Assembly (NCBI GenBank): GCA_022496805.1
Contig: CM040088.1
Coordinates: forward strand, 17,329,001-17,393,000
Source: Pohlia nutans
Taxonomy: Eukaryota; Streptophyta; Bryopsida; Bryales; Mniaceae
DNA length: 64,000 nucleotides
Direction of reading: 5' to 3'
This document shows, in pieces, positions 1,304 to 64,000 of this stretch (position 1 is the stretch's first letter; every line of letters starts with the position of its first letter). The translations under genes were made by a program, and so were the position numbers. The notes beneath the pieces are model-generated. The model had not been told where the DNA came from and made no database searches. It was given only the letters and a program-made list of their open reading frames with translations.

Positions 1304-4300
1304 ATGGCGTCCACTTCCGGCACTCGCACCGTTTGCGCCACCAATGCGTCGCATGCGGTGAGCTTGTACAAAAATTTGGGTTGCAATAGTGGGAGTGGTG
1401 ACCTTGTAAAGTAGGGATGAATTGAATGAGCAATGCCTTGAAAAGCTCTTGACGAGTTGTGGTTTGGTAATTGATGAACTTAACCCCTAAGCGTCTACTG
1501 TGTATTTTCTGAAAATTGGACACCCTGCTGGAAAGCATCTGTTTGTGTGAGAATGAATTCAGTTTGACACGATCGAACGCTCTTGATCTTGTAGTATAGA
1601 ACAAGAGCTTTGAAATGATGTTGATTGCAATCAGAAAACCGAGGTAAAATGAGAAAATGCCACCGCTGCAAAGTTCAGTGATGCCGATGGCCATATTGGG
1701 CGTTTTAGACGCTTAGGGGTTAAAGGAGAACTCCAACAATTTGGGGTTGAACTAATTAGTGGGTTTCTGTTGACAGTGCGCGAGCTCAGCTGCGATCACC
1801 TCGTCCAGCTACCGGAGAGCCTCGTTTCTGCCGACGAGTCAGAGATCTGTCTCTGCTTTGAGGTCTTTGCGCGCAAACGGATTCAACCTTCTGCGTAGCA
1901 ACCCAAGACTTGCCACCAGTTGCAATACTAAATTCCTCAATGTCAGAAGCGACGCTACCTTGGCTGGGAAGGAAACCCTATTGACAACCGAGTCCGAAAC
2001 TGAGGTACACAGTCATTTTCAATAGCACACAATTCTAGTGCGACTTCCCTTGGGAGAGATTCGGACGAATATGAATGTTTTTTAGCAGTCCATATGGAGA
2101 CCTTTTTGTCCAATTTTATTTAGTTATTACCCCCTAAGCGTCCACTGTGTATTTTCTGTAGTGTAGGAAAATTGGACCCCCTGCTGCAAATCATCTGTTT
2201 GTGTGAAAATGACTTCAGTTTGACACAATCAACACTGTCGATCTTGTAGTATAGAACAAGATCTTTAAAATGATGTATTGCAATCAGAAAACCGAGGTAA
2301 AATGAGAAAATACCACCGTTGCAAAGTTCAGTGATGCAGATGGCCATATTGGGCGTTTTAGACGCTTAGGGGTTACCCAACAGGTGTAATATTCTTCACT
2401 GATTCTGGTGATATGAAAGTTGGCCCCATTTGAATTATATTTGATAAATCGAAGCGGTATGAATCCTTGGGTTAGGGTTAGTTTTGTTATGACCTGAATT
2501 GATTAGAGAATTGAATGAATGCTGTTCGTGCAGCTGGAGCAAGAGAAGAGCCTTGAAACTCCACAGAAAATTAGGGGCTATCCTTTTACAGAGGTAGAGG
2601 CACGATGGCAGCAATTCTGGGAGGAGAATCAGACTTTTCGGACTCCAGATGCGGTGGACACCACCAAGCCCAAATACTATGTCCTGGACATGTTTCCTTA
2701 TCCCAGGTTGGTTTGTTTCCCGACCCTGAGATTATGAACATTGAATGAATGAGATTTTGAATTTTGTAATAAGATGCAGAATCTGTCTTTTTGACCCTAA
2801 TTTGGCATGAAAAGGAATCCCTGACAGTGTAGTTAAGGTCAATTTGAGCAAGTGAGAGAGAGAGCTTCTCAAACCAATGAGCCGTTGTCTTCACATCTGA
2901 GAGACTCAGAACTTTAATTTTACTTTGATGTTATGACGTTACAAAGCTCTTAGTTGGCACTATTCACAAAAGGTGTCGTGCCACTAATACTCAGGAATGG
3001 TATTAGTTTGGTGGCTTTTCATGAAGATTGAATGAATGCAGTGCCATGAGATTTTGAATTTTGTAATAGGATGCAGAATCCGTCTTTTTGACCCTAACTT
3101 GGCATGAAAAGGAATCCCTGACACTTTGTAGTTGAGGTCAATTTGAACAAGTGAGGGAGAGATAGCTTCTCAAACCAATGAGCCGTTGTCTTCACATCTG
3201 AGAGACTGACAGCATGTCAGAACTTTAATTTTACTTTGATTTGTTATGCCACTAATACTATTGCAGGAATGGTATTAGTTTGATGGCTTTTCAAGGGCAG
3301 AGTTATGTTGACAGGAATGTATACCCTTCAGTGGTGCAGGATTACATGTTGGCCACCCTGAAGGCTACACGGCTACTGATATTATGGCTCGCTACAAGCG
3401 GATGCGAGGCTTTAATGTGTTGCATCCCATGGGCTGGGATGCCTTCGGGTTACCAGCCGAACAGTACGCCATTGAGGTTTCTTCACAACCTTGCATATAG
3501 CTTGCTTTCGTCGTTATATTTACCTTGCAGTTAGGTTCACTACCCCCAGAGGTGTTCTAGAAAAGCTAACCGCATTATGATTGGCGGAGTTTTTGTTAGA
3601 AACTGCCTGTTATAATTGGCAGGGTTTAAGGCAGCTAGGTTTTCTAGAACATCTCTTAGGGGTTTCTACTCGTGGTTGTAACGTCTTGCAACTTGTTACT
3701 TTGCCACTATTCTCCAGAGCCTGTTCGATGATTTACTAATCCAGTGACAATCTTTACGTGATAAGGGCATAAGTGGTTCATTTTACTTGGTAGTGAGGTA
3801 GGAGGCGGACAAGCTTCAACATTTTGTTCATATTAACATTACACAATGGCCTCTGTTTATTACGGTACTCAATGTAACTAAATTTGGTTTTTCTTGCAGA
3901 CCGGAACTCATCCACGAGTCACAACGCTGAAAAACATTGATCGGTTTCGTTCACAGGTTTTATTCTTTTCTAATGTTGACATGCCGTTTGGGTAATTGAA
4001 TATGGAAATAGCGCCGTAGAAATGGATAGAAATGGGCATCCCTATTTTGAAAATACATTTTAAGTCCAAAAAAAATGTTGTTTTGTTCTTAGATTGACGG
4101 GGGCAATCCAGCATTTGTTTTGCAATAGAGTACTCTTTGAACTTATTCGTGACTTCACATGCAGCTCAAATCACTTGGGTTTTCATACGATTGGCAACGA
4201 GAAATCTCCACAACTGAGCCGGACTACTACAAGTGGACACAGTGGATATTTTTGCAGCTATTTAAAAGGGGCTTGGCATATGAGGTAGATCGTCAAACCA

Positions 4301-7300
4301 AGCTTTAATCTTTGAATCCTAAACCTAGGTTTCATCTTCTAACGGTTAATGCCATCTTACGACATTGAGAAGTTCTCATTTTCAATATTACAAAACGTTT
4401 GACCCTGGATTATTTGGGCCAGGCAGAGGTGGCAGTCAATTGGTGCCCGGCACTTGGAACAGTCCTGTCCAACGAGGAAGTGATCGATGGCCTCAGCGAG
4501 CGTGGGAGTCACCCAGTCATTCGTAAGGTTCGTTACATTCTGGCATTTCGTTTTGGATGTTTTCTTGTGTCATATCAATATCGTAGGAAGCATACCATAG
4601 AGCTTTTAATGTAAGTGATTATGTACTTGAATATATGATCGTTTAAGTGACAGTTAGTAGAACATATGCACGGGTGGAACATGTAAACAAGACCATCTGA
4701 AGTCCGGATCAATTGTGTTAGTTATGGTGAACAGAACTTCGTCAATTTTACGTACTGACGAGACACATGTGATAGAGTTAAGTCGTCATATTCGTTAAAA
4801 AGGCATTATTTTAAGAAATTGGCACTTTTTTAAACGCCTGTCTGGAACTTGAGATCTATTCCAGTCCTAGTTTTTAGAGCGCTGTGCACTTGAATGTCAC
4901 AATTTCGGCATTCTGAAACTCTCCATTTCACTGAAATAGAAAATGCTACCAAATGAACTTATTTCCTGTTATTTTCCTAGCACATTATTTCCAGGTCATT
5001 TTCATTTTTGAGCAACATTTCACCTCTTTACTTACATATTTTTGAGAAATCGTTTTTAGCAAATTCAACGATTATGACCATAGTTAGATTCTAATCCCAG
5101 TTGACACTAATTTTTGGCTGTGATGCACTCAGCCCATGCGACAATGGATGTTGAGAATCACGCAGTATGCGGACCGGTTGGTGGAAGATCTAGACGATTT
5201 GGATTGGCCAGAGAGCATCAAAGACATGCAACGCAATTGGATTGGCCGCTCCGAAGGTGCTGAACTTGGTTTCCCCATCTTGGACACTAGCGGAGCAGTG
5301 CGAGATGGTCTCAGCGTGCGTGTTTACACTACCAGACCTGACACTCTGTGTGGTGCGACGTAAGTTTTAAATGCCTTGACCCTAGCTACGTCATTTTATT
5401 AGCAAAGATTAACCCCTAAAGGACCAAGTTTTAAAATGACAAATTTAAACGACCATATTGTGAAAAATATAATTGAAATGGGACCAAGCTTTATATCACC
5501 GGAATCAATGAAGAACATTGCTTGTGTTGGTCAAACAACAAATAAATTTGAACAAAAGGAAGTCTACATAAGGCCTACTCAAAACTGCTAAAAAAAACAT
5601 GGGAGCCTTATGGTCCTTTAGGGGTTACAACGTAAACATATTTCAAGATGCTCACTGTGGTATTATTATGTGAGGGCTTATCAGAATAATACAATATTGT
5701 TATCGTTCAAGGAGAATTGTGCTGGAAATGGTCCCCCTCAACAAGACGTTTCCGAACAATGGCATTATTTCTCTCAATATTGTCACTTCCCACTCAATAG
5801 TGTCTTTTTTATTCTCAATTGTGGCGCCATTTAATTCTACTATTGCTATATGGCATAGATTGTGAAAGTTTGTCTTGTGTACAACTTGGCACCTTTATTC
5901 ACATGAGCTTGTTCTAATGAGGGCAACTACTTGGGGTTAAAATCTCTCTCATGGTAACAATTTGAATGATGAGGGTCATGTTTGCACAGGTATCTTGTGG
6001 TGGGTCCTGAGCACCCGTTGCTGGAGCAGCTAACTGCGGAGGATCAAAAACATGCTGTAAGTGTGTCTACTGCTTATCATTTGATTAAGGTCAAACTCTG
6101 CAATGACTGGCGTTGTGATGTCCATCCATACCTTGCTTGATTCGTTAATTATTTGTGTCCTAGTCTTGAAAGACATCAACTCTCTCCTCTCAATAGCCTG
6201 TTGGTCAGACTCTTAACCCTTAACCCCTAAAGGACCAAGGTTTCATGATTTTAATATGACAAATTCAATCAATCATGTTGTGAAAGTTATAATTCAGATG
6301 GGACCAAATTTTATATCACTTGAATCAGTTAAGAATATTGCATGTGTTGATAAAAAACCAAATAAATTTGAACAAAAAGGAACTTCACATAAGACCTACT
6401 CAAAAATACCAAGAAAAACACGAGGCCCAATTTGGGCTTCTTGGTCCTTTAGGGGTTAAAGGACATGGCTTTCCTGATTCCCACACCCAAAATCTCTTTT
6501 AAACTCCATTTTAAGCATGATTCTCTTTTTAATTTACTTTAGTTCTATTCTAAAGAAGTATAGATGCCTTAAATATGTTCGCTTTGGCATTTAAAAAACC
6601 CCATTTGGTTCAATGGAGTAAAGTTATCAGCAAGATTCTCCCAAAAAAACACAGTAAGCCCGTTGGGCTTTGTATGTCCTTTAAGGGTTTAGTATCTTAC
6701 TGTGGTAGTAATTTCATAGTTGCTCTTTTCTCTAGCCGACTGTAGAGTTGGAACAATATTTAAGGTAGAGGATACTAAAACCATTAGGGACTTGATTCCG
6801 TCTCCTATACTGACCTCTGTTATCAACAACAACTCATCTATTCACACACTTGGTTGAAATTATTAGCAAGTGTTGTAAGCATGACGCAAATAGTATCCTC
6901 CACCTTAGACCATGAATTCCTGTTCGTGAGGTTCAGTCCCAATCTTCTTTATATTTGTTGTAAATATTTAAACAAGTTTTAATTAATTTTTATTATTGGG
7001 TATCCTGTAGGTAACTGAATACGTGGAAGCAGCCCTCAGGAAGAGTGACTTGGAGAGAACCGAGCTACAGAAAGTGAAAACTGGTGTTTTTACTGGAACT
7101 TACGCCAGGAATCCAGCCACGGCAGAAGCCATTCCAGTTTGGGTAGCCGACTATGTTTTAGGCGGGTGGGTTTTCTTCCGTTTTGGTAGGCTGCTTTCAT
7201 TCATTTCTTTTCAAAAATTGAGCCTTTAGTTTAGTCTTCCATAATGTAGAAGTCCTGACGTTTTCTTTGTCATTCCGAGCTTCTTAGTCAAGTTGAACTA

Positions 7301-13423: not shown

Positions 13424-13466
<43 letters not shown>

Positions 13467-15625: not shown

Positions 15626-15886
15626 ATGTAGTCAACTTGTTCATACTCTTGGAAATATTTCATACTATCAACTCAAGTAGTTTTTGAACTTATTATCACT
15701 CTCCCTGCTGAAGACAAACACCAAGTCTTGTGCAGGTAAAGCCATTTCTATGACAAAGCACTCGCTCCAGGTCCGCATTGTCCACAACCAGTAACACTTC
15801 TAATGAGGCTCGATGATAAATTAGAGCCCATAGGCTTCATTCTTACGTCCTGTGCAATCACCATTGCAACAACATCAAGTAAATTA

Positions 15887-16181
15887 CTCCCTCCGTCTCA
15901 AAATAATATCGTGATTTGCTTAATTTGGCTGTTTTAAGGCCAGTTTGTCTCCACACTTTGTAACACGCTTTTAATGCTGACGCAGCATGTCTTGGACACC
16001 ATGCTGATTAAATTGACTGCCTCACATTCCTTCACATTGGTCCTTTTTGTGCATGCCTTTGACTTGTCACATGCCTTGGACACCATGCTGATTAAATTAA
16101 CAACCTTTTTTAGCAAATCAAGGTATTTTTTTGAGACAGATTTTTCAAGCAAATCACGATATTATTCTGAGACGGAGGGAG
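15887..16181. mobile_element. Stowaway-type MITE (Tc1/mariner)
   Basis: Left end CTCCCTCCGTCTCAAAATAA and right end TTATTCTGAGACGGAGGGAG, flanked by TA on both sides (15885-15886, 16182-16183). This terminus and the TA target are diagnostic of Stowaway. The interior has its own direct duplication around TTGGACACCATGCTGATTAA (two copies about 95 bp apart). The 270-aa-scale frames across it are incidental. Confidence 0.92.
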
Positions 16182-16466
16182 TATATGATTGTCACATAAG
16201 TATCAACAATAATTCAATTCTTGCTAAAACTATATATAAATGACTGTCATCTTTGCGGTGCGCCATGTGCACAACGTTCTTTAGTGAAGGAAGGGCCTGT
16301 GATTGACACCTCAGAATTGGCCACAATGCTCTGAATCATAATGCCCATGATTCTCCCATTCTTTATATAAAGATACAGCTTGAGGAAGGTTGAGAGATGT
16401 TAAAAAAATGAATATCATGGATGCACAGGGTCACATGTAAGTGGTTGTAAAACCAAGGAAGAATAG

Positions 16467-17299: not shown

Positions 17300-18042
17300 T
17301 TAGCGACCTTCACCGCCACCACCACCTCCTCCTCCACCTCTGCCTCTACCTCTGCCTCTACCCCCACGGCCGCCGCCGCCACCACCCCCTCCATTCCCAT
17401 TACCACGTCCCCGGCCACGCCCATTACCTGGTCCGTGACCTCCCAGAAAACCTACCGATTTCTGAGAGCCATTGGTCTGTGAAATTGAAATGGTACACCA
17501 GTTAGTACATCCGCATCAATTGTTCAAGCAAAGATGAAAACTTTTTTTGGTGCCAAAAATACAATCTGAATAACCTCATCACATGCCAGTTTAATCCAAA
17601 GAGTCTGTTGGGGACAATTCCTACAAACTACATCACATCACATGCTACACTACCCACAAAACAAGAAAACTTAAAATTAAAAATTAAATTAAAATGGGAG
17701 TTGTTGTCAAAAACGATGTAAAAACACTCTTAACAAAAACAACACCGTTTTTTTTGGTAATGATACCTTTTATGCTTCCTTTTGGAGGTAGACTCTATGA
17801 CACAAACTCAATTATATTACAATTGAAAACTTATATAAATAAATGACAAATTACGATGGTCTATTAGTATGGTGAAAAATCGGGCAATGGAACATGAACA
17901 AAGGCGAGTGACCCACCTGAGTAGTAGTGAGGAGCTTCTTCTCGACAAGAGTCCTAGCTAAAGTTGGTAGAACCAAGGAATAGCATACTAGGAGTGCCAC
18001 GAGAATGAAAAAGAAGCATTGGGAGCTCCTTGAAGATCCCAT
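17300..18042 (-). CDS. Glycine-rich secreted protein, GRP1
   Basis: Two exons on the minus strand: 18042-17917 and 17476-17300, joined phase 0, giving 100 aa. Residues 1 to about 28 form a signal peptide (MGSSRSSQC, then a hydrophobic core ending LPTLA). A short linker with RTLVEKKLL follows. Exon 2 starts TNGSQKSVGFLGG and becomes Gly-rich with RGRGRGRG runs. It is a paralogue of the gene at 22058 in opposite orientation; start, splice sites and stop context (GGTCGCTAAAATCAATTGG) all match. Such proteins are usually cell-wall or apoplastic. In this copy the sequence equivalent to the paralogue's TATA box lies about 780 bp farther away and reads TGCATAA, so expression may be lost or changed. 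Confidence 0.8.
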
Positions 18043-18815
18043 TGCACTAACTGTTAACACTCTTCTCCTACAATGGTGCCAGCCAATAAAAGGAGGTGGG
18101 TATGAGGGCCATGAACTAGGGTCGAGTTGAACATTATCCATAATATCTAACAACTCATTGTTGAACTGCAGTCTTCTGGGCCTTGACATTACCATGCAAA
18201 CAACTTTACATGCAAAGAGTCTCGATTCATACTTTAGGGAATCAAAGTAGCACTTTACCAAAAATAGAACACCAAAAGTAAAAGTAAAGTCTTAAACTAA
18301 ACTAATAGTCATCTCTGCTGTAAGATTGAGTTTAGGAGCATTAGGTGAGGATTGGGGCATTTGGAAGGCCCCTCCAATGTAATCGGCTGAAATCAAATGT
18401 GATGAATAAAAAATTAATAAAAAAATAAAATTACAAAAAATGAAAAATGAAAAAAGTTCAATTTGTTGTGAATAGTCGTTGTTCACATCCGATTGCATTT
18501 TAATTTTTTTGAACTAATTTTGTTTAATTATGAATTTATTCATCATATCTAATTTCAGCAAATCACATTGTGAGGACCTTCCAAAGGCCCCAATCCTCAC
18601 CTAATGTGATGAGAGGCTCTCTTTTATTGAAGTCTATCATCTACAATTGGTGGTTGAACTCTTGTTATTCTCTTAGAATTCATATATATCATGCATTTTA
18701 AGCGATTGTAGCGTACCATGAGACCTATACTTTTTCTTTTTTTAATAATAAAGGTCCAATGCAGAGGGTTAATTGCTTATTATTCTCCCTCATCACTCTC
18801 CCCCTTGCACTTGAA
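18043..18815. other. DNA separating GRP1 from its ancestral promoter
   Basis: Going upstream of GRP1, the first 15-20 bp resemble the GRP2 leader (GTTAGTGCAATG versus TAGTTGCAATG). Similarity to the GRP2 promoter then resumes only near 18816. The intervening block of about 750 bp contains an inverted-repeat element (18336-18611) and AT-rich filler with no gene. The block is absent between GRP2 and its promoter, so it is most simply an insertion in the GRP1 copy. Confidence 0.6.
18336..18611. mobile_element. MITE with roughly 60-bp inverted repeats upstream of GRP1
   Basis: Left arm GCATTAGGTGAGGATTGGGG then CATTTGGAAGGCCCC; right arm GGGGCCTTTGGAAGG read on the minus strand, with CCCCAATCCTCACCTAATGT on plus. 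The arms extend about 60 bp with some mismatches, and the middle is AT-rich. The exact ends and target duplication are unclear, so the superfamily is not assigned. Confidence 0.7.
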
Positions 18816-19412: not shown

Positions 19413-19935
19413 GCGGAAAAAACACATAAATCCAAAACACATGACATGGTGAACCATTTTTACGACTCTTTTTGTAGTTGGGACCGCATGTACATTATAA
19501 ATTTTAGATTCTATCCGTGCAATTGCTATCACCAATATTTTTGTATAAAATTTGAAGCTTGAAATTTTTTTTGTAATTTGATTATGAATAAGATATTGAC
19601 AATTTGTATATAAAATTTGTTGTGATGGGTTGAAATGTAATAGTCTAAGTGTAGTGATTTTTGGAGATTTTTTGGTTGCTTAATTTTTTGTGTTGACTTT
19701 TTAAAGAGGACTTTTACACTGAAATTTTCGAAATTTTGGGTGAATCGCTACAACATGAAATGAGGCATAAATTTTCACAAATCATCCCCTTTCTAATCGG
19801 GTCACACATGCATGAAGCTAACTTCTCATAAAAGATATAGTAAAAAATTCACACTGCAAAAAGTTAATGACAGATAAGAAAATTGTGTTTGATTCTGTAC
19901 ATCGTCCACTTTATGAACGGTTGGACGTTTAGGAG
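19413..19935. mobile_element. TTAA-type MITE, family D copy 2 (inverted)
   Basis: An inverted homologue of the complete element at 49305-49872, recognised through AAATCATCCCCTTTCTAATC, GTCACACATGCATGAAGCTA and GTGTTTGATTCTGTACAT. Its right end reads GGACGTTTAGGAG followed by TTAA (19936-19939). The left boundary is placed at a TTAA near 19409 but its terminal repeat is not preserved, so that edge is approximate. Confidence 0.6.
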
Positions 19936-20968: not shown

Positions 20969-21454
20969 ATGAACGAGTGGGTGGATTGGAAGGACTGTTT
21001 TCCTTTGCATTCCATGCTCCCAAGTTGCAGACAAATTCACTCAAAACCCCGGCCATTGACTTCACCAGCCTCGGAATAATAAATGCCTTTGAATGATTTG
21101 ACCCTGATCAGAGTTTGGTTGGGTCATTGACTTGAGGTGACCATGGCCAGTGATGAATTTATGATGATAAAGGCACTGGAACAATGTTCATGGCTTCAGG
21201 CTTCTAGCGCCATCATATTTCAGCAGATAAACGGCCAGTCACTTCATCATTTGAAATAAGGAATTAGGTGAAATTCAGTGTTTGAAAAATGACCAAGTGT
21301 GGTCATATTGGGCTCTTTAGAAGTTTAGGGGTTAAAGACATGATTGTATGTTTCCACATGATAGTGCAAACTCAAGCTACATCAAAATTTGCAGGAAAAA
21401 AACTCGGTTTTGGATCATGATACAACCATACAAGGCTTTGTGCATTAACATTAA

Positions 21455-21768: not shown

Positions 21769-21983
21769 TTAAACAAGAGAAGAACTAATTACTTGCATTC
21801 CACTGATGCCAACTTGCCAACTGAATGCCATCATAAAAGCTGCGTATCTGTTACATGCTACAAGTGTGCAAAATTGTCAACCATGAGCCTCAATCATTCA
21901 GGGCAGGGCTTCAATGTCACAGTGAGTCCAGCTGGCATGGGACCATGTTAATTGCGTTGCCATGTCATCCGCGTTTTCAGCTG

Positions 21984-21990
21984 TATATAA
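21984..21990 (+). promoter_or_regulatory. TATA box of GRP2
   Basis: TATATAA, 68 bp upstream of the GRP2 start codon, within a region (about 21890-22050) duplicated in inverse orientation at 18816-18930. The paralogous position reads TGCATAA. Confidence 0.65.
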
Positions 21991-22057
21991 TGTGATGCTA
22001 TCCCACTTCAAGGTCCGTCATCAGCAGCAGCTGCTTCAGTCTCTTAGTGTAGTTGCA

Positions 22058-23309
22058 ATGGGATCTTCAAGGAGCTCCCAATGCCTCTCTTTCATTCTCG
22101 TGGCGCTCCTGGTATGCCACACCTTGGTTCTGCCAACTCTAGCGGCCAGGACTCTTGTTGAGAAGAAGCTCCTGGCTACTGCTCAGGTGGGTTACTCGTC
22201 TCTGTTCATGTTCCATTGCATTATTAGCAAAGGCGTCGCTTCTCACTCAGAACAGTGTCAGAGTTCACTGTACACACTTGTCCTACGTGACAAATCGCAC
22301 TCACCAAGTCTTGAACACCAAGCAGTGAGTGCGAAGTGGCGCCGTTTGACTCACCTACCGAGTGAAAACCAACACCTTGTAGTGTTGCCGGATTTGTCAC
22401 TCCATACTAATAGATCATTGTAATTTGTCATTCGTTTATATAAGTTTTCAATGTAATACAATTGAGTCTGTGTCATAGAGTCTACCTCAAAAAGAAGCAC
22501 CAAAGGTAGCAGTACCAATAAAAGGGTGAACATTGTTTTCACCGCTCTTTTTGACATTGATTTTGAAAACTACTCCTAATTTTTTTGTGGTAGTGAAGCA
22601 CTTCCTATTTGTGTCCATGTGATGTAGTTTGTATGAATTGTCCTCAACAGACTCTTTGTTCAGTCTCGTCTTTGGACTAGAGTTATCCTTCATTCTATGC
22701 AAGCTGAACCTCTCCTTGTAACTGAAAACAAATTTTAACCCTAAAAGTATCATGGGCATCATGTTTTTATTGCAGTTTTGAATAGGTCCTATGTACACTT
22801 CGTTTTATTCAATTTTATTTGTCTTTTATCAACACATGTAATATACTTCACTGATAAAATCTGGTCTTATCTGAAATTATATAATTTTCACAATATGATC
22901 GATTGAATGTGTCATTTCAAAACTCAGTCTAGTACGAATCCTCGGTCCTGTAAGGGTTAATCAATGAGCATGGCATTTAATGAAGTCGTTAAGATTGTCT
23001 TTTTGGCAGATGTTGTCACAAAATAGTTTTCATCTTTAGTTGAACAATTGATGCGGATATACTAACTCGTGTACCATTTCAATTTCACAGACCAATGGCT
23101 CGCAGAAATCGGTCAGTACCCAAGGTTTTTTTGGAGGTTGGGGACCAGGTAATGGTTTTGGTAATGGGCGTGGCCAAGGACGCGGTAATGGGAGGGGCGG
23201 TGGCGGTGGCAGGGGCGGTGGCGGTGGCGGGGGCGGTGGCGGTGGCGGTGGGGGCGGTGGCGGTGGCGGCGGTGGAGGTGGTGGAGGTGGCGGTGGAGGA
23301 GGTCGCTAA
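22058..23309 (+). CDS. Glycine-rich secreted protein, GRP2
   Basis: Two exons, 22058-22186 and 23091-23309, joined phase 0, giving 115 aa. The signal peptide (MGSSRSSQCLSFILVALLVC, cleavage likely after LPTLA or LPTLAA) is followed by RTLVEKKLLATAQ. Exon 2 encodes TNGSQKSVSTQGFFGGWGPG, then GNGRGQGRG, then an almost pure Gly tract of about 40 residues coded by GGT/GGC repeats, ending GGR. Secretion to the wall is inferred from the leader and composition. The intron is about twice as long as that of GRP1 because it carries a CACTA MITE and a TTAA MITE. AATAAA occurs at 23412. The Gly tract is in a G-rich microsatellite and its length may vary or be mis-sequenced. Confidence 0.85.
22219..22384. 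mobile_element. CACTA MITE in the GRP2 intron
   Basis: Ends CATTA (worn CACTA) and TAGTG, inner inverted repeat AAGGCGTC...CTTCTCACTC, flanked by TTG on both sides (22216-22218, 22385-22387). The paralogous GRP1 intron reads CCATTGCCCGATTT at this point, that is, the empty target. Homologous to 13879-14035. Confidence 0.88.
22739..22956. mobile_element. TTAA-flanked element in the GRP2 intron
   Basis: Ends CCCTAAAAGTATC and GGTCCTGTAAGGG with TTAA on both sides (22735-22738, 22957-22960). The GRP1 intron lacks it and has a single TTAA (GGATTAAACTGGCATG) in the corresponding place, followed by alignable sequence. The left flank aligns less well, so the empty site is likely rather than certain. 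Confidence 0.7.
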
Positions 23310-41799: not shown

Positions 41800-43100
41800 C
41801 AAATGTGATTTTATTTTATTGATTTGCTTCAAAAAATTGAAAATGAAAATACATAAATGCGTTCATCATAACACAAATTCATGTTCAATATAGAATTTCT
41901 ACTATTACACGTCACATGTACAAAGTGACCAAAAAGTGTCCTCTTAGGCTAAGAAAGATTAACCCCTAAAACTCTATTTGAGACAAAATGGGTTAGAAGA
42001 GGCCAAATGAAACCTTAAAAAGTGAATTATTAAATGAAAACTTAATGGCAGTTCCTAATCAAATGTTGTGTTTTGCACGCAAGTTCTCTTGTAATTTTCT
42101 TTAATTATTTTGTTTTTGTAATTAGGCATCAATTTTCTAAGAAGAGATTATTTTTTAGCTAGTTTAATGAACACTACTCTGGTTCCAATATTTTAAATAT
42201 GAAAATTCCAAGTTTCATCAAAAAAATAATGCACATAGTAGATGCAAAGAATTGAAGTTTTTATTATATTAATTATGATATTTATTTTTAACGACATTAT
42301 GGAATTTTTTAATTAATTTCCATGACACTGCAATGTCATTGAACTTAAATGTCAATGCTACACTTGATTTTAAATTTATGAATGGTTTGACATAAGTGAC
42401 ACTATTGGATGACAAACTTTTAATAATATCATCGTTATAGTGGGTTTGAAGCCATATCCACTAAAAGAAATGTGGGATTCTACGACTACAAGTATACGAC
42501 TCAAACTAGTCCGTAATGACTGTCATTAGTCATTACATACTAGTTTGAGTCGTATACTTGTAGTCATTGAATCCCACATTTCTTCTAGTGATTTATTGGA
42601 TGTTATATAATAAAAATTTCCAAAATTCCTCTTCTTCAATAGTAAAAATAATCTATATATAACCAAATATATCGAATTACATTTAACGATGTGGTGCAAA
42701 AATCAACTATTGTGAAAGGCACTTTCATACAAAATAATCGAGAAGATTCAAAGATATGCAACTTCAATTCCTAAGAAAAGATGGCATGTAGAAAAGAAAA
42801 GTGTTGACAAACTTCACATTGATGTTATTGGTTTTCCACCAGTGTTCCATACATGTTTCCTACTCATGGTTATTTTAAATTTGTAAGTTCAATCACACAC
42901 AATCATATTAATTTTCCACCTATAATCGATTTGTCTAGTCCCAAGTAACTAATCAACATTCCATTCAAATCTCATATTTGTTTTCCACGTGTAGTTACTT
43001 TTATTTTGTACATTCTATCACACAATTAATCTATCACCAGTGTTGAGGGGTTCTAAGTGACTCAATTTTTTTCTCTAAATAATGATTATAGTGTAAACAA
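41800..43100. repeat. Large dispersed repeat, copy 3
   Basis: Homologous to 40360-41790 and in part to 31.0-32.9 and 43.2-43.9 kb. It carries a 132-bp CACTA MITE at 42459-42590 that the other copies lack. A lone TTAA-CCCCTAAAA end occurs at 41959. Confidence 0.55.
42459..42590. mobile_element. Palindromic CACTA MITE, copy 1
   Basis: Starts CACTAAAAGAAATGTGGGAT and ends TTCTTCTAGTG; the two halves are nearly perfect inverses through CGTATACTTGTAGTC and TAGTTTGAGTCGTAT to a short loop. Flanks ATC and ATT agree at two of three bases. A second copy is at 52045-52191. Confidence 0.85.
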
Positions 43101-44427: not shown

Positions 44428-44651
44428 ACTTTCAACATTCATTTTTCACTGATTGATTTTTGTTGAACCAACTACATTGATTAGGGATATTAAGGGGACC
44501 AAAAAATAAGAGCCATTGACCTTGTAACAATGACCTCATGGTCGAAAAAGTTATTGTGTCAAAAAAATTAAATAAAATTTGCTATTGCCTGACTATACGT
44601 GTAAAACAAAAAAATATAAAAAATAACTTTGTTTTTTTACAATAATAGTAA

Positions 44652-45125
44652 GGGGCGGTTTACACTACGGACCAAGAACTCGTCCCATGCTGCTGTAAAA
44701 TCTGTGATTGGCTCCATCAACTCGTCCCGGGATGACTTGGGTTTACACTACAAGGAAAAAAGAAAAATGACCAAAGGAGTTGAGGTCTTCAAAAGGCCTA
44801 AAAATAGGCCTATTGGATAATGTTGAAGGGTCTCCCGGATTTTGTGGTGAGAGAGGCAAAAAGGGTTCTCTCATTGCCAAACGAGGAGATCATGGGCTTG
44901 AAGTGCCGTTTTATTATTTTTTTAAGTCCCGGTCCAAGTTCGGTTTACACTTAGTGAGAGGCCCAAGGGCTTTAAGAATTACATTTTTTTGAAGTGTGAC
45001 CATGGAAGTGTGACCATGAAGTGTGACCATGGAAGTGTGACCATGAAGTGTGACCATGAAGTGTGACCATAGAATTAATCTATTTTCCTTGGTCACGGCT
45101 CTTGGTCCGTAGTGTAAACCGCCCC
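44652..45125. mobile_element. Tourist-like (PIF/Harbinger) MITE, 474 bp
   Basis: Ends GGGGCGGTTTACACTACGGA then CCAAGAAC, and GCTCTTGGTCCGTAG then TGTAAACCGCCCC. Flanked by TAA on both sides (44649-44651, 45126-45128), the standard Harbinger target. The interior has a short array of GTGTGACCATGAA/GGAA at 44994-45070. Confidence 0.88.
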
Positions 45126-45410
45126 TAAATATATATAGTGTGAAATGTCGATAAATGAATATGGACCCCTTTAATACCCCTATTTAGTGTAGTAAGCTAC
45201 ATTGATTATCTAATTTAGTGCGTGGTACTAATTCCCAAAGGACGCACTATTTTACCAACTCTCAAAATTAATGGGAGTTGGAATTTTTTCTGAGTGACCT
45301 GAAATCTTCACATCACGCTAATTTTACATCATAATGATATTTAGTATCCATGGGTCTCTTCACTCTCTTGCCCAGCCAAAATTTCATAACCTTCATTAAT
45401 TTCACACACG

Positions 45411-46247: not shown

Positions 46248-46801
46248 CCTCTAAAGGATCGCAGATTTTTCCTATTATTGAGCATAATTTTCACCTCTTT
46301 CTATTCATTTTCTTATGAATATTTTTCTTGCTCTTGATTGAAAATACCAAATTAAACATTGAAATAATATTTAAGGTTTTCTTTGACCAATTTAACAATT
46401 TTTCCCATGTCTTCAAAGATGGTCAAAAAATATAAAAAAAGACTACAATTTCATCTTTTCACTTCAAGCGCTATAAGCTTGCAATCTGTATGGTCAAATT
46501 CTATGAAAATTTCACCATGCATTCTACTAGTAATCTAAAAACAGACCCTACGGTTAGAATTGAAAAATAATAATTTCTTAGGTTTATTTTGAGCCCTGCC
46601 TGCACTACCCATTCTCCCAAAAAAAACCCCTTCTACTCCATAACTTCCACTTAAAAAGTTGGAATCAAAATAGATCTCCATTTTTGTATTGATATACCGA
46701 ATTCACATAATTCGTTTCAAAAAATAAAAATAAAAATTGACACTGTGGAAACCTACCCGACCATTGAAATGTCCTAGTTAGGACACTTGGTCCTTTAGGG
46801 G
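46248..46801. mobile_element. TTAA-flanked element, 554 bp
   Basis: Ends CCTCTAAAGGATC and GGTCCTTTAGGGG; flanks TTAA (46244-46247 and 46802-46805). The terminal sequence is the same as family A, but the interior is different and longer. Its right TTAA is also the left TTAA of the next element. Confidence 0.75.
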
Positions 46802-46805
46802 TTAA

Positions 46806-47241
46806 CCCTTAAACGTCAAAGCAAGCCCCACGGGCTTGTTACAAAGGAATAATTGAGGGAAAAAGTAGTTTTTCTCAACCAAATCAAGAGAGAATTGGTG
46901 CATTGGAAAGCTATTGAAAAAGCGATTTACGTTCTTGATTTGCGCCTCATTTGGGAGCTTGTGGAATCATTCACAAGCAATCAAAGTAGTCGGAGTGAAC
47001 AGGAGTTGAAGTTGGGCAGTAGAGGTCGTTTTTGAAAAAAGTGCCGCAGTGCAACAGTGCCGCAGCAGTGGCTGGCCTGCAGAGCCTTTTTATTTTTTTA
47101 TTTTTTTAATTTTTGTTTAATTTTTTTTTGTTTTAAATTTATTTTATTTTTATAAAAAAAAAATCGATTTTTTTTTTTGCCTCCAAAAATATTTAGATAC
47201 CTTCCGGGCTGCCCCGCCCAGGCCCTCTTGACGTTTAAGGG
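46806..47241. mobile_element. TTAA-flanked MITE, family C copy 1
   Basis: Ends CCCTTAAACGTCAAAGCAAG and CTTGACGTTTAAGGG. TTAA at 46802-46805 and 47242-47245. The interior has long T/A runs. Related to 54171-54676 (shared CAAAGCAAGCCC, GAGAAAAA, TTTTTCTCAA). The left TTAA is shared with the preceding element. Confidence 0.85.
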
Positions 47242-47655: not shown

Positions 47656-47662
47656 TACTGAG

Positions 47663-48294: not shown

Positions 48295-48556
48295 CCCCTA
48301 AAGGAGGTTGCCCCTGTTCATACGGTTGCATACATGGAAGAACATTCACATACAGGTGCCGATTACTGTAGCATAATTTGTCCTATGGGGCCAATTTTTT
48401 TTGTCAGCCTTGTAAGAATCACAAGACATGTTGCTGTAAAAATTTCAGAATTTTTCCTTGTGCAAAAGAAGTTGAAAGAATTTCTTGTATAAAAGATGGT
48501 GAAAGAATTTCTTGTACAAATGTGGTAGTGAGAAACAATAGAGCATGCATTAGGGG
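48295..48556. mobile_element. TTAA-flanked element, 262 bp
   Basis: Ends CCCCTAAAGGAGG and CATGCATTAGGGG, with TTAA at 48291-48294 and 48557-48560. Only the outer 7-8 bases are inverted. The interior has a short internal repeat (GAAAGAATTTCTTGTA twice). Confidence 0.7.
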
Positions 48557-49304: not shown

Positions 49305-49872
49305 CCCCTAGACCTCCAACCGTCTACAAAGTAGACAATGTACAGAATCAAACACAATTTTCTCATCCGTCATTGACTTTTTGCAGCGCAAACTTTTTAC
49401 TATATATTTTATGGGGAGTTAGCTTCATGCATGTGTGATTCGATTAGAGAAGGGATGATTTGTGAATTTTTAATGCCTCGTTTCATGTTGTAGTGATTCA
49501 TCCAAAATTTTGAAGATTTTGTAAATGTGCTTTTAAAAAGTCAACTCATAAAATTAAGCAACCAAAAAATCTCCAGAAATCACTACACTTAGAGTATTAC
49601 ATTTCAACCAATCACAACAAATATCATGTACAAATTTTCAATATCTTGTTCATAATCAAATTACAAAAGAATTTTCAATTTCAAGTTTCAAATTTTACTC
49701 AAAATTAAATATTGGTGATAGCAATTGTAGATCTAACTGCATGGATAGGATCTCAAATTTATAATGTACAACTTTTATTCATACATCAAGTTCAAAATGT
49801 CCCTATGGGTTGCATTTTATGATGCATATTTGCAAAACTGCCGAATTTGGAGAGGGTGAGGATGTTCAGGGG
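49305..49872. mobile_element. TTAA-flanked MITE, family D copy 1, 568 bp
   Basis: Ends CCCCTAGACCTCCAACCG and GGATGTTCAGGGG; TTAA at 49301-49304 and 49873-49876. An inverted relative lies at about 19413-19935. AT-rich interior without coding frames. Confidence 0.75.
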
Positions 49873-54170: not shown

Positions 54171-54676
54171 CCCTTGAACATCAAAGCAAGCCCTATAGGC
54201 TTATTTATGAAAGAATAATAGAGAAAAATTGGATTTTCTCAAACAAAATTGGATTGGATTAGTGTTTTGGAAAGGGTATGAAAAAGTGAGGCAAGATTCC
54301 CAACTTGCACCTAAATTAAACAATTGTGGAACAATTTACAATCAAATGAAGGAATCGGGAGAAGGGGGAGCTATGATTGGGTAGCAGATGTGGAGAGAGA
54401 CAAAGCATTTAAAATAAAATAAAACAACAATAACATTGGCTTGTAGCGAGGGCCAGCAATACCTAACATGTAGTGCTGGCCAGCAACGCATGGTAGGCGC
54501 TATGTGGCACTGTAGCAGGCCAACCTGTGGGCCGGTAGCAGGCTAGCGGGTTTTTAATTTTTAATATTTTTCTTAAATTAAAATTAAAAAAAAGAATTTA
54601 GGAGCATGTTTGCTGCTATATACTTTTGGAGATGCTCTTCAGACTGCCTTCCAAGGACCCTCTCGACGTTTAAGTG
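54171..54676. mobile_element. TTAA-flanked MITE, family C copy 2, inside the array
   Basis: Ends CCCTTGAACATCAAAGCAAG and CTCGACGTTTAAGTG, with TTAA at 54167-54170 and 54677-54680. Array sequence resumes directly after it (TATGTAACGAATTCAACTAA). Related to 46806-47241. Confidence 0.8.
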
Positions 54677-56445: not shown

Positions 56446-57501
56446 ATGGCGGAGTGACTATCGTATGCGGCTGCACTCAAGGAGAAACTCGAGCATGCGC
56501 TGGTGGTAGCCTCAAGTGCAACAACGAAGCTGGACCGGGACGCAATGCACCAAGGAGAAGCCATCGAGCCGAAACTCATCACTGTTGTGACTAATATGGG
56601 TCGACACGTACAATTCCACCCGTCTGTGGTGGCCCCTGGCGAACAACTCCCCGAAGGTTACTCGCGGAGCTGTACAGGTTTCCATCTTTGCAACACGATT
56701 GTGGAGGTCAAGGTGGACCAAGATGTAGTCAAAAAGGAGATGGAGAGACTACAAAAACATGCAATCGTGGCATTTTTCGTGGGTGGGAGGCAGGCCAATA
56801 CGGTACTCACACAGATCGAGGACTGGGTGGGCTTGGGCAGGAACTTAAGAAAAGGGTTTTCCCAAATCCTCACTCGACAGTCCCTCACGACGCGGAAGTT
56901 GTTGGTGCACACCCAACACCGGTGACGATGGGGCACATGTATTCTACAAACATGGACGACGGGCTTCGATTCCAACAAACCATCTCGCCTCAAGGTACCC
57001 ACATGGGTGACATTGCGTGGCATTCCAGGGGAATTTCTAGGTGTAGCGAAGGACATTGCAAGAGGGTTGGGAGAGCTCCTTGGGAGTGACAAGCGAAATG
57101 CGTCCACGGCAGATCAAAGGTTCTGCGTTGCCTTACATTTCGGGCAAGGGTGGAAGACACAGCTTGCAGTAACAAATGATTATACAGGTGAGAAAGTGGT
57201 TATCCTTGTAGATTATTGCAACTTGCCCATTAGGTGTCGATGTTGCCATTTGACCGACCATTTGATTAAGGATTGCCTGGGCATCAAGGGGCCTACGTCG
57301 GTGAGTGAGTCCATAGAAGGGACCCCGGTGGAAGATCGCAATTCCTCAACTGTTGGAGGTCAACCATCTAAAGGTGTAGGGGCCGGGCCTGAGGCGACGC
57401 CACAACAGCCTTTGATGGGCACTGCGCCAACCCCATCTGGAGAACTAGACAACAGAGTCGACAGCCTGATGGGGGTCAACTCGGAGCCCTCAACTGACTG
57501 A
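56446..57501 (+). pseudogene. LINE ORF1 remnant with CCHC zinc knuckle
   Basis: From ATG at 56446 one frame runs to 57501 with only two internal stops, TGA at 56455 and TGA at 56923. The N-terminal half has TNMGRHVQFHPSVV and KHAIVAFFVGGRQ; the second half VPTWVTLRGIPGEFLG resembles the nucleic-acid-binding DUF4283 region of plant LINEs. CRCCHLTDHLIKDC (about 57235-57276) fits CX2CX4HX4C. The Gly/Pro/Glu-rich tail continues in other frames to about 58450 (MMVDETDRLIAEAMEEAENQ). The protein would coat LINE RNA. Confidence 0.8.
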
Positions 57502-58585
57502 TCGGTGAACCATTATTCAAACAAAGATTCCAGAGTCACTCCAGAATGAGAGTGGAATGGATGGGAGAAGGTGCCAAGGCAAAAACACGCAGTGCGATGT
57601 AGACCTCCCCCCAACGAGTTAACACGGACCAATGTGAGACAGCAGCCAGTCATACGCGATGATCGCCGCCCGGTAGCATGAATGTCGCAAGGCCCTGCGA
57701 GGAAAGAACCCCCTGCGACTCAAAGCACACCGGGAGGGCCAATGATGGACACTGGAAGTGAGCTGGGAAGGCGTATGGAGCCGGCTAATGTGGAATGGAA
57801 GGCAGGCATATAGGCTCCAGCAAGTGCCAATGGTGGCAGCATGCCTGTGGAGCAGACGAGGTCAGCACCGCCGAGCAGGATAGTAGTATCCCCGAGGCTG
57901 GTGCGAGTATGGGAGACAGAAGTCCAGGCCAGCAACTAACCTCGGGGGTTGGAGCATCGGGCAGTGGCAGACCGGATGATCCAATGATGGTAGACGAAAC
58001 AGACCGGCTTATTGCTGAAGCCATGGAGGAAGCGGAGAACCAACGAAGACAGATGCAACCACAACGGGAGAACAGGCCTAGCCAAGGGCTGACTGATGGT
58101 CGTGAAACCAGGACGAGTGGAGAAGGCCAGAGGCTTGTCACTAGCAGAGAGGGAACGCGGTAATGCCACCACCGCAAAGAAGACAAGGAGCAGGTGGCAC
58201 GAACAAGGCTGTGGTCTTCTTAGCTATGGGACGCCCAGTCCCAAACCTGAACGACTTGGCCGCGCAGTCCGGATCAGTGGCGCTGGCTAAAGGAAGCGTG
58301 AGTGACGGGTCACATGCCTTCCCCCCTCACATGAGGACCCTGAACGTGAGGCATGAAATTGAGCGTTCTGGGGCCTCCACTCCTCGGACCCCAGCACCCG
58401 TTCATGAAGGCCTTGCGGAAGATTTGCAGATAGAGCTCTATGCATGGATGCATTAGAGGGATGGAGGAGCCCCAGCAGGTTCGGCTCCACGACGGGGTGC
58501 GCTTACGCCACAGCAATCAGCGAGGCGCCACGAAGTTACTCAATCAGCGCAAAGGCAAAGAGCATCTCTACTCACGCAAAGAAGG

Positions 58586-59961
58586 GTGGTCGATCGAGAG
58601 GTAAATGTGCATAGTGTCTTTTGTAACTCGGAGTTGTTTCCCTCCCCCGCCACCTGCATTATGAAGATTACGACCCTTTTCCAAAATGTACAAGGTATTA
58701 GAGTTATTTGTAAAGACATCCGGTCTTTTGTCCTCCTTTTTTCATGGACCAGAGCTGGTCGTCATCAATCTGACACCACTCTTCCTCACGGTCCCACCCC
58801 ACTACCCAATTCTTCTCCCTCCCTCCAAATTTTTATGAATCAAAATTTTAATCTATCCAGTATTCTATTCTGGGTCTACAGTGAGATCATGCCGATCCTG
58901 TCCTTTCCAAATTACAGGTTAAAAAGAAGGGTTTTGAGGGACTTTACAAATAACTCTATTAACAACACCTTGAAGGTAGACATTGTTAGACAATATTTTC
59001 GTGGTTTATTTTCTAGTATAGAAGTACTTTGTTTTCAGGAACACCGCTTTAGGGGCGACCGCCTCGCATCCCTCCAAACCTCGTTTTGGCCACAAGCTAG
59101 GTTTTTTAGCATTGAGGCCGTTGTTGGGTTTGGCAATGACCCAACCGGGACAGGAGCTGGCACGGGGGGTGTATGCATGTGGCTGGCCCCTAGGGTTTCT
59201 CACCTGATCACTAGCTCGGGGCAATCCAGAGAGGGCAAGGCTCAGTGGGTCCGGTTTGGGGGTGTGCCGGGGGGCGATATAGCCATCTTTAATGTGTATG
59301 CAGCCAACGGCGTGAGGGAGAGATGTTTTCTATGGGAAGAACGCTGGACATTCTTCCTCGTGACTGTAGGTAGATGATCTGTGGAGATTGGAACTTCGTT
59401 GAGAAAAGAGGAGACAAGTCTAACCTCAATGGACGGTTAATCTCCATGGGTGAGAATAGGATGTTCAACCTACTCAAAGACGCTTTGAATGTGGGAGAAT
59501 GCTTTGATGGTTCTAATGGGGTTAGGTTCTCCTGGGATAATAGGAGAATTGGTCCCTCTAGGTCCCTAGCCAGATTAGATAGGTGTTACTCGTTTGTCCA
59601 AGTAGGAGCATGACCGCAGCCTGTAACATAATACTATATCAAAGGGGACTGTTACCATTCAAATCACCTCCCGGTCCAGTGTGCAGTCCAACTACAGCCG
59701 GTGCCCAAGTGCAAATCCACCTTCAAGATGAGTAACCTCTACCTGAAGTATCCAGAGGTTGTCCGCCAATTTGAGAGAATTTGGAGGCAAAACCCGAGGT
59801 TAGGGTTCACGGGCAAACTGCGTAGAGCAGTGAAGTTCTACAAAGCCTTTTGTGTCAAGAAAGCCCAAGAATTCCGGGCAGTGGAGACTGGCCGGAGACA
59901 ACAGTTGGAAGAGATCACGGTCGGGCTGAGCTTGATCCAGCCGTACCAAGGCAGTAGATAG
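58586..59961 (+). pseudogene. LINE ORF2 endonuclease remnant
   Basis: APE-type endonuclease. Frame 58586-59377 holds LCFQEHRFRGDRL (catalytic Glu), GTGGVCMWLAP and IAIFNVYAANG. A frameshift at about 59374 leads into ICGDWNFVEKRGDKSNLNG (catalytic Asp) and FSWDNRR with ARLDRCYSF. After a TGA (59611) and a TAA the same frame reads HSNHLPV at about 59660, where the usual motif is SDH: the Asp has become Asn. Then VPKCKSTFKMSNLYLKYPEV begins the linker, ending at a stop at 59959-59961. Confidence 0.85.
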
Positions 59962-59999
59962 GACGCAAGCCTCAAATATTTCACGCTACCCAAAATCCA

Positions 60000-62476: not shown

Positions 62477-62522
62477 ATATATACACACATACATACATAT
62501 ACATATACATATACATATACTA
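62477..62522. repeat. (CATA)n / (TATACA)n microsatellite
   Basis: TATATATACACACATACATA followed by four copies of CATATA. Confidence 0.9.
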
Positions 62523-62988
62523 CTGGAACATGGATAAGAGAACACAATCCAAAAATATATATAAGATAACAAACTTGCAAACAGAACAAATACCACACAG
62601 TACGTGTGTTGTATTTGTAAGTATTTGCAGTATTTTGGTGTTTTGTACATAGGTATTTGGATAGCTAAGAAAGTCAGATTCCAAATTATCTTTTTGCATC
62701 ATCTACAAAATCAAAAGTTACACATCTAAACTTCAGATACCGGACTGAGATGGTTCACAGATTTTCCAGCATTTCGTTTTCTAGTGATCCAGTGACCACT
62801 TAGTGGTTACCTGGGCACTAAAGGGTTAAACTACCAAATAAAGGCAGAGTGGCATCGAAAACAAATGTCAAGTTTGGCAGTTTGATTCCCAGCCATGAAA
62901 TCCCCACCCTGCAAGATAGAAAAACCTTGTTGCGAGTTGCGAAAAAAGTAATTCGTGTGTCAAAATAAAATAAAATTGTGGACTTTAA

Positions 62989-63516
62989 CCCTTTAACATC
63001 CCGATTCAACATTGTTTTCAAAGAAGCGTTATAAAAAGTTTGATGAAAACCAAAAATGGGGTTAATGGTCAAAGCAAAGTTGTAAATGTCAGTGTGAAGA
63101 TCACATCTGTACGGTTGGATTTATTCTATTTTTATTTAATATTTTTTAATTAATTTTGCAAGGTTATCTCTTGAAATTCAATGTAAAATCCCAAAGTAGC
63201 TCCAAAAAACTTAAAAATATGGTAATGAAATTGGAATAACATGCATTGCGAGATGGTATGGTTTCCATTATTTGATTCTACTTATTTTGGAAAATCATAT
63301 TTAAGATCCCACTTTTTGAACTAAAAATGAAACTTGACGCAAACCAATTTTGTTGTTTTTCTAACCTATTTTGAAGATCCAAACTGTACAAAGGATAGTC
63401 AACTTGCTCAAGAACCAAGAGAAATTTTGGTGGATGAAAACTGTCCAATTTGGATGAGAATCTAGCAATTTCAATCTGTGCGTCGTCCACATAGTGGACG
63501 CTGGCGCGTTAAAGGG
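62989..63516. mobile_element. TTAA-flanked MITE, family E, 528 bp
   Basis: Ends CCCTTTAACATCC and GGCGCGTTAAAGGG; TTAA at 62985-62988 and 63517-63520. Another right end of this type, CACTAAAGGG then TTAA, is at 62816-62829. AT-rich interior with no coding frame. Confidence 0.8.
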
Positions 63517-63864
63517 TTAAATGGTCATCATAATAATGAAGAAGATATCTTTAACTAAATGTCAATGAAAGTTACGATTCTGAAAAAGAATCTAACATTT
63601 TTTTGGGTACAAATCTTGCATTTTATCTATTTGTAAAGACACTAGAGGCCACAATAATTGTACATACCCTAGGTTAAAAGCTGATCCAAAACCAAATTAA
63701 TTCAAAAGATGAAAGTTGAAAAGTTTCAAAATTTATTTTTTCAAAAGATAAAGAGTCTATTTCAGGATGATGTAAAAGGGAATTTTGAGGAATGGTCACA
63801 GTACTAGAATTCAAATTTCAAAAATAATTATTAATCTACACATTAGTGTTGAATGAGCTGTTAA

Positions 63865-64000
63865 CCCCTATAGGACTAAGAAGTCCGAATGTTTTTTTTT
63901 TTTTTTGGACAGTTTTGAGGAGATTCTGTGGACTTCCTTTTGTTCAAATTTATGTATGTTTTGACCAACACATACAATTCTCTTCAATGATATAACATTT
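63865..64000. mobile_element. TTAA-type MITE, family A copy 3, cut by the window edge
   Basis: TTAA (63861-63864) then CCCCTATAGGACTAAGAAG; continues in inverse orientation relative to 5413-5624 and 6224-6455, with CTTTTGTTCAAATTTAT and TTCTTCAATGATATAA-type matches. The right end lies outside the window. Confidence 0.75.

Follow-up and report, generated by a model that had tools for sequence, protein, structure and literature searches.

The closest described relatives of the elements reported here belong to the piggyBac superfamily. piggyBac (IFP2) of Trichoplusia ni inserts at TTAA, has a CCC tip and codes for a transposase of the DDD type that has a cysteine-rich domain (CRD) at its C terminus; its left end (LE) carries a palindrome at bp 17–33, on which a CRD dimer was seen by cryo-electron microscopy at one LE, with a narrowed groove centred at approximately bp 25 (PMC7351741). 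Human MER85 has 13-bp terminal inverted repeats (TIRs) and, 3 bp further in, a single 16-bp palindrome at one end only, the replacement of which lowers PGBD3 binding by 80% (PMC3459987). In piggyBat of Myotis lucifugus, an imperfect palindrome lies inside the LE and, in the account available, none on the right end (RE) (PMC11707139). A subterminal LE palindrome is described in T. ni and similar in MER85 and piggyBat, and is not universal. Acropora corals harbor miniature inverted-repeat transposable elements (MITEs), termed CMITEs, of several families with TTAA flanks and CC[C/T]T tips, one of which has the TIR of a piggyBac-like element in the same genome; we follow the definition of piggyBac given there, a TIR of 12–19 bp with a CC[C/T]T tip (PMC2872659). 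Here we describe elements of this kind in a 64,000-nucleotide stretch of the genome of the moss Pohlia nutans (contig C4, positions 17329001–17393000), hereafter called the window. We conclude, with a probability of roughly 94%, that they are MITEs of piggyBac-superfamily cut-and-paste transposons, of which several separate lineages reside in this land-plant genome.

The target, the CCC tip, the DDD transposase with its CRD and the LE palindrome at bp 17–33 are all shared with T. ni piggyBac. Unlike there, the palindrome has another sequence, transposase identity is 23–31%, and T. ni piggyBac repeats its palindrome on the right end, whereas no second copy stood out in the eight elements checked here. 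The one-ended architecture is that of MER85, but host kingdom and palindrome differ, and where PGBD3 is found in fusion with an animal gene, the moss retains complete elements with open frames. The Cys/His pattern of the transposase tail resembles that of piggyBat by eye, yet piggyBat carries motif and palindrome three times on its LE, an arrangement not seen here. CMITEs share target, tips and a multiplicity of families with the moss elements but live in an animal and form tandem arrays (PMC2872659), whereas here we found abutting pairs only.

piggyBac in plants is not new as such, because it is already named in plant repeat tables. The table for C-fern has 1,230 PiggyBac copies covering 122 kb (PMC6890710), in a 2015 survey PiggyBac is one of the superfamilies present in every group examined, land plants included (PMC4438587), and the word piggyBac occurs in papers on Niphotrichum moss, yerba mate, sweetpotato and Dracaena. 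A 2025 paper calls piggyBac only occasional in plant genomes and names red algae (PMC12732532), and a survey of MITEs in 207 plant genomes has five superfamilies and one special group, with neither piggyBac nor TTAA in the main text as available (PMC12550479). The parts of the anatomy are all known, and class membership is secure. What seems new is the combination of this host with such a scale, so many lineages, near-identical copies and a palindrome particular to each family; our literature searches, within the texts accessible to them, did not find piggyBac described at this scale in land plants.

An abundant class of TTAA-flanked elements

TTAA occurs 421 times in the 64 kb of the window and should precede approximately 3 of its 496 CCYYT tips by chance; it precedes 26. 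A scan of TTAA pairs for inverted repeats (14 bp, ≤3 mismatches) returned nine pairs, compared with 0–2 in 10 Markov shuffles; six of the nine start with CC, one of them a cross-pair of two family B copies. The 26 tips accepted as element ends begin with CC or CT in 25 cases and with CA in one, and are flanked by TTAA (22), GTAA (2), TTAC (1) or TAAA (1). The original prediction, made from the letters of the window, had assumed TTAA flanks throughout; this holds for those 22 tips, whereas TTAC lies on either side of the element at 2131. Twelve of its 13 named coordinates fall on a CC tip as it described. The exception is 19413, where the copy really spans 19489–19935 with its tip at 19935. It had overlooked a whole element at 6217–6687 and two ends, at 21331 and 62825.

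The majority of ends are tipped CCCCT or CCCTT, and the first 7–8 bp, CCCYTWAA, are common to most tips. The TIRs match at 14/14 bp in representatives of families A (1484), B (6224) and C (46806) and more weakly in D, F, G and H. Partner ends had been claimed for 22739, 48295 and 49305 as well; these proved to be poor inverted repeats (4/14 mismatches at 48295 and 49305), and relatives elsewhere in the genome bear out 48295 and 49305 as real repeats. Copies within a family are approximately 74 to 89% identical. Between families, no interior among A, B, C, D, G and H convincingly resembles another, as had been predicted, the only such match being that of two C copies to each other; the next best are B–C (25–27 bp, E 0.001) and D–N (15 bp, E 0.004). 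A 16-bp terminal repeat is common to B and D, and bp 9–16 and the palindrome vary from family to family.

Altogether, the 13 listed stretches sum to 4,816 bp, or 7.5% of the window. The window belongs to an assembly of 698 Mb in 332 contigs, and 10-kb stretches taken arbitrarily from four other contigs contain 2, 4, 3 and 7 TTAA-CCYYT tips, 16 in total against 2.05 expected. If these 40 kb are typical, the genome would hold, as a rough estimate, elements of the order of 10^5. An exact 20-mer of the family B tip had 0 matches in both the viral_contigs and genome_contigs collections, and a 20-mer of the T. ni piggyBac tip had 0 in viral_contigs. No convincing partner end was found for the orphan tips K24764, L31248 and M41963.

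TTAA is a duplicated target

In line with the original prediction, the TTAA is a 4-bp duplicated target and not part of a longer conserved terminus, as seen from nested insertions, homology edges between copies, and duplications of TTAC and CTAA. A family A MITE at 2131..2372 (minus strand, 242 bp, 88.9% identical to the copy at 1484) has the target-site duplication TTAC/TTAC and sits in a family B copy (2101..2442, minus strand), of which it leaves the pieces 2101–2126 and 2377–2442. When this element is removed and one TTAC is kept, the B flanks align gap-free across the junction to two other B copies. Similarly, a family B MITE (6224..6455, minus strand, 232 bp, LE at 6455) is nested in element N (6217..6687, minus strand, 235 bp without the insert, TTAA on the left and TTTA on the right, LE at 6687). 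It interrupts the right-end terminal repeat of N at CCC-TTAA-AGG, which now reads CCC-TTAA-[element]-TTAA-AGG, and the opposite end of N is uninterrupted (CCCTTAAAGG).

Besides TTAC at 2131, a second non-TTAA direct repeat of 4 bp, CTAA/CTAA, surrounds a full element at L027, one of the transposase loci (L numbers) described below. A piggyBac-type duplication other than TTAA, namely ATAA, is in print (PMC8634313). Among the matches listed, homology between copies of whole elements stops exactly at TTAA on both sides for L009/L011 and L009/L012 and has its edge within 3 bp of TTAA for L009/L024 and L010/L019.

Several elements lie directly beside one another. A family D MITE (46248..46801, minus strand, 554 bp) abuts a family C MITE (46806..47241, plus strand, 436 bp, TTAA on both flanks), and the two have a single TTAA at 46802..46805 in common. 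A B-like copy directly follows the TTAA of the autonomous element at L010 (6945–6948), and the B insertion in N uses a TTAA within the terminal repeat of N (window 6213–6223). Insertion beside older copies may be frequent, comparable with the tandem arrays of coral CMITEs.

A palindrome at a fixed distance from one end

At one end of most families, a palindrome occupies bp 17–33 and is centred on bp 25, with a family-specific sequence (the LE is assigned throughout by the piggyBac convention). It was first noticed by eye and then tested on all 32 TTAACCC ends, unselected, at 60 centres. With the centre on bp 25, 10 of 32 ends form 5 or more of the 7 pairs and 5 ends form 6 or more, whereas the remaining 59 centres reach a maximum of 3 ends and 1 end, respectively. 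Across 1,000 shuffles, at most 1 end reached ≥6/7 at bp 25, and at most 3 did so at any centre. At the same threshold, controls gave 1 hit in 1,143 CCC sites without a preceding TTAA and 1 in 781 TTAA sites without a following CC. Among 493 CCYYT tips, 7 bear the palindrome, 6 of them after TTAA and 1 after TAAA.

An independent repeat of the analysis covered 203 kb (20 other loci and one flank), in which 65 TTAA tips were collapsed to 47. Here, 12 of 47 ends form at least 5 pairs at bp 25 and 5 of 47 at least 6, and any other centre has ≤1 end at ≥6; control sites gave 5 hits in 1,419, one being the CTAA-flanked LE of L027. For ten ends chosen for a visible palindrome (six others of 16 printed being excluded), pairs 22/28 and 19/31 are kept in 10/10, with two and three letter-pair types, respectively. 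Five further positions show at least two pair types in these ends, and mismatches too.

In the window, the palindrome forms 7/7 pairs in the C copy at 46806 (CAAGCCCCACGGGCTTG) and in a family H MITE (62989..63516, minus strand, 528 bp, LE at 63516, CGTCCACTATGTGGACG). In the D element, the LE at 46801 reads CCCCTAAAGGACCAAG followed by the palindrome TGTCCTAACTAGGACA, centred at 24.5. It reads AAAGCCCAACGGGCTTA in N, GCCCAAATTGGGC in the nested B copy, and CGTCTACAAAGTAGACA in a family G MITE (49305..49872, plus strand, 568 bp). The orphan LE “I” (62796..62825, minus strand, TTAA outside) consists of CCCTTTAGTGCCCAGG followed by the palindrome TAACCACTAAGTGGTCA, and a relative of it lies in L019 (88% over 218 bp). 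A second family A MITE (1484..1719, minus strand, 236 bp, TTAA on both flanks, LE at 1719) has an imperfect palindrome. No bp-25 palindrome was found in element F. When a second palindrome copy was sought inside eight elements, none rose above the 95% mark of the shuffles, with N (11/17) and G (12/17) tying it.

Transposase genes

A genome-wide search with the PF13843 (DDE_Tnp_1_7) profile scored 116 of 1,305 candidates, and all 116 match with E < 1e-73, above the curated cut-off. Many lie in long open frames, the stop-to-stop frames reaching 1,274 amino acids. The same search of 14 control genomes gave no match. For closer study, we took 20 of the 22 highest-scoring places with approximately 4.4 kb on each side (C17:26357431 and C11:6620685 were excluded). 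T. ni piggyBac aligns with frames of all 20 loci at 23–31% identity (E 4e-15 to 7e-41). All six proteins submitted to Pfam match PF13843 (E < 1e-80) and no other superfamily, and none of the six matched the Pfam CRD models. In the PDB, T. ni piggyBac and piggyBat are the sole matches to L027 (E cut-off 0.001). The catalytic residues D268/D346/D447 are conserved in 11 of 11 aligned proteins, and 10 of the 11 have a cysteine/histidine tail, the exception being L028, the frame of which stops upstream of the tail.

The 20 loci resolve into about seven lineages that are 32–52% identical to each other, and a tree with long branches agrees. This diversity is probably underestimated, because the sampled places are among the best-scoring ones. 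The ends, the target and the 116 PF13843 domains support the original prediction of an abundant piggyBac-type TTAA system in a plant genome. It had also proposed looking between such ends for a DDE_Tnp_1_7 transposase, which is where the domains were found, in complete elements with tips of this type, and the six Pfam-tested proteins agree with its expectation that full-length relatives are not of another plant superfamily.

Whole autonomous elements

TTAA-flanked ends surround the transposase at L009, L011, L012, L015, L017, L018, L020, L023 and L024, and elements with both ends located measure 4.5–9.1 kb. The element at L027 runs for 4,461 bp from CTAA to CTAA. In L016, the LE, reached by adding 4 kb of flank, reads TTAA CCCCTAAACGTCCAAC CGTCCATATTCTGGACG, with a palindrome of 7/8 pairs at bp 17–33 and an element length of 9,095 bp. 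The LE of L021 reads TTAA CCCTTTAACGCGCTCG CGTCCAGAATCTGGACA and belongs to an element of 8,501 bp. A good palindrome is present in 5 of the 15 autonomous LEs seen (L015, L018, L016, L021 and L027).

Near-identical copies occur at separate places. Among the matches listed, L010 and L019 share 99.4% identity across 5,038 bp, with divergence setting in ≤1 bp from TTAA on both sides, and L016, L022 and L026 are 98.5–98.7% identical over approximately 6.45 kb. Identity as high as 99.4% between copies implies that the elements moved recently. Two further observations concern these loci. Upstream of the transposase, L016 contains apparent tandem repeats of approximately 40 bp (2397–3286), also present in L022 and L026, and an extra left end, TTAA CCCCTAAACGTCACAA CGTCCAGTTTCTGGATG, lies in L036 (C17:284681-287680), approximately 0.3 kb upstream of the LE of L021.

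Transposase lineages and MITE families

The D element appears to be the cognate of the autonomous element L027, to which its LE is identical at 45 of 52 bp, palindrome included. For G, the LE matches that of L016 at 37/50 bp (41/50 in the second G copy), the RE tip matches too, and G aligns in register with L020 (bp 53–106) and L023 (bp 34–117), so that the ends of G correspond to those of the L016/L020/L023 transposase clade. In protein sequence, L027 and L016 share about 40% identity. By these alignments, D and G match two different transposase lineages. The tips of H are closest to L021, with 19/20 bp at the RE and 27/33 bp at the LE (23/33 for L016), and H probably belongs with this third lineage, L021 being 50% identical to L016 in protein.

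Remaining elements of the window

Family B is further represented by a MITE at 5413..5624 (minus strand, 212 bp, TTAA on the left and a decayed TTAC on the right), a diverged copy at 22739..22956 (plus strand, LE at 22739, TTAA on both flanks) and a copy cut by the window end (63865..64000, plus strand). The truncated G copy at 19489..19935 (minus strand) is 84% identical to 49305 and has TTAA at its LE tip, 19935. An orphan LE at 21300..21331 (minus strand, TTAA outside) is a relative of family A (85.7–86.1% over 35–36 bp). Element F (48295..48556, 262 bp) has weak terminal repeats, and a second copy of it lies inside L024 (85% over 199 bp). The other family C MITE spans 54171..54676 (plus strand, 506 bp), with TTAA on both flanks and the right tip CACTTAAACG.

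Other features of the window and the assembly

The genes in the window comprise exons of an ACT-domain protein, to which plant ACR models match just below the cut-off, and of a leucyl-tRNA synthetase. A Stowaway-like inverted repeat lies at 15885–16183 (TACTCCCTCCGTCTCAAAATA..., 37-bp arms, 97% complementary), and a TA-type MITE thus seems to coexist with the TTAA class. Another element, at 44645–45132, has 33-bp inverted arms (GGGGCGGTTTACACTACGGACCAAGA). Two long hairpins, 18339–18606 (114-bp arms, 77%) and 42459–42590 (63-bp arms, 92%), are possible sources of small RNA or other MITEs; the window had 0 matches in Rfam. The frames 17854–18291 (minus strand) and 21926–22420 (plus strand) encode similar peptides (MGSSRSSQC(F/L)...LVALLVC...LPTLA...RTLVEKKLL) with no Pfam match and appear to be two copies of a small gene, one on each strand. 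A stretch at 56458–59958 resembles a long interspersed nuclear element and has several frames, one with a DUF4283 match below the cut-off and cysteine motifs and one endonuclease-like by eye, with no Pfam match. Elsewhere in the assembly, AUX/IAA domains occur at only two places, a small number for a seed plant. Green-plant-type rbcL (highest PDB match 9chz) has, among the matches listed, 80 top-scoring equals on small contigs (C26–C329), which are plastid fragments left in the assembly. Together, rbcL and the AUX/IAA count point to a land plant that is probably seedless.

Discussion

Each lineage encodes a DDD transposase, which ends in a cysteine/histidine-rich CRD in every complete aligned frame, and its elements carry CCC(C/T)-type terminal repeats, joined in most MITE families here by the one-ended palindrome at bp 17–33. 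By analogy with T. ni piggyBac, the transposase core would read bp 1–16 at both ends, and a CRD dimer would grip and bend the LE palindrome. Excision would proceed via hairpins on the TTAA overhang, followed by reinsertion at another TTAA or, at times, at TTAC or CTAA. The MITEs retain the ends alone and would borrow the enzyme, with D, G and probably H drawing on different lineages. We infer CRD binding, hairpin chemistry, the pairings that operate in the cell and present activity.

Could a single piggyBac transposase move all families, the common tips being its recognition site, as the original prediction proposed? CCCYTWAA forms the first 7–8 bp of most tips, B and D have their 16-bp terminal repeat in common, the LE of H resembles both L021 and L016, and relaxed cross-mobilization is conceivable. 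However, bp 9–16 and the palindrome are family-specific, and the 20 loci hold about seven lineages. The matches of D (to L027) and G (to L016) to lineages only approximately 40% identical, and probably of H to a third (L021), each lineage with a terminal repeat and palindrome of its own, contradict one transposase for all, which we regard as improbable. Far less probable still is that the piggyBac signal represents animal or other contamination of the assembly. piggyBac is known mainly from animals, but PF13843 matches are spread over 22 contigs, C1–C22 (12–52 Mb where seen), both AUX/IAA places are on contigs that also have PF13843 matches (C9 and C10), the MITEs adjoin host genes in the window, and TTAA-CCYYT tips are likewise in excess on the other contigs sampled.

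Membership in another superfamily is also very unlikely. Tc1/mariner (TA duplication) or PIF/Harbinger (3 bp) MITEs might have a conserved end that happens to read TTAA; indeed, a TA duplication around an ACCC...GGGT element gives identical letters at TTAA sites, and most sites are ambiguous in this respect. Yet the direct repeats TTAC/TTAC (2131) and CTAA/CTAA (L027) are 4 bp long, the register of the palindrome (bp 25) fits an element start at CCC, and the transposases are piggyBac, which leaves this explanation little room. Sola3 also targets TTAA. It is listed as a superfamily of insect MITEs (PMC5199201), but full elements with these ends encode PF13843, the piggyBac triad and a Cys/His tail, and the palindrome occupies the piggyBac position; Sola3, at which no search was aimed, is not needed to account for the elements, and we give it a similarly slight chance. 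Kolobok elements, which duplicate TTAA and have termini of the form 5'-RR ... YY-3' (PMC9587614), are the least probable of all, as 25 of 26 tips here start with CC or CT and one with CA, not 5'-RR, and the tested transposases are PF13843.

Several observations nonetheless weigh against assigning the elements to piggyBac lineages with LE palindromes. The palindrome is lost in 3 of 4 B copies (decayed at 5413 and 22739, broken by a poly-T run at 63865), and it is poor in 10 of the 15 autonomous LEs, with 4/8 pairs in L009, L011, L012, L024 and L014, 3 in L010, L019 and L023, and 2 in L017 and L020. Among the matches listed, the left end of L013 begins at a TTAA internal to the tip. A tblastn search of the window with T. 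ni piggyBac found no transposase piece (best E 1.1). As to the pairings, the RE alignment of D with L027 is weak, over 50 bp of LE H matches L016 (34) slightly better than L021 (32), B shows LE resemblance only (27/33 bp to L018, 25 to L027), and no autonomous partner for A, C/N, F or I was found among the 20 loci.

On the assignment to several piggyBac lineages, a broader proposal can be made, for and against which we see the chances as evenly balanced. A seedless land plant would have been colonized by at least seven piggyBac lineages, which would be a main source of its MITEs, plausibly with ~100,000 copies, and recently so, given copies that are 99% identical. Each lineage would have its own LE palindrome, palindrome and CRD having diversified together as private codes, so that the lineages would run as parallel, mutually insulated systems.

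For the study of plant genomes, the finding suggests that surveys built on the usual plant MITE classes may miss or misfile a TTAA class. Many divergent, recently moving lineages would allow the timing and number of piggyBac entries into plants to be tested, and natural paired sets of transposase and ends would be a means to test how the CRD reads the palindrome. The version of piggyBac applied in rice is that of an insect (PMC10905368); the moss elements would be plant-resident relatives of this widely used genome tool.

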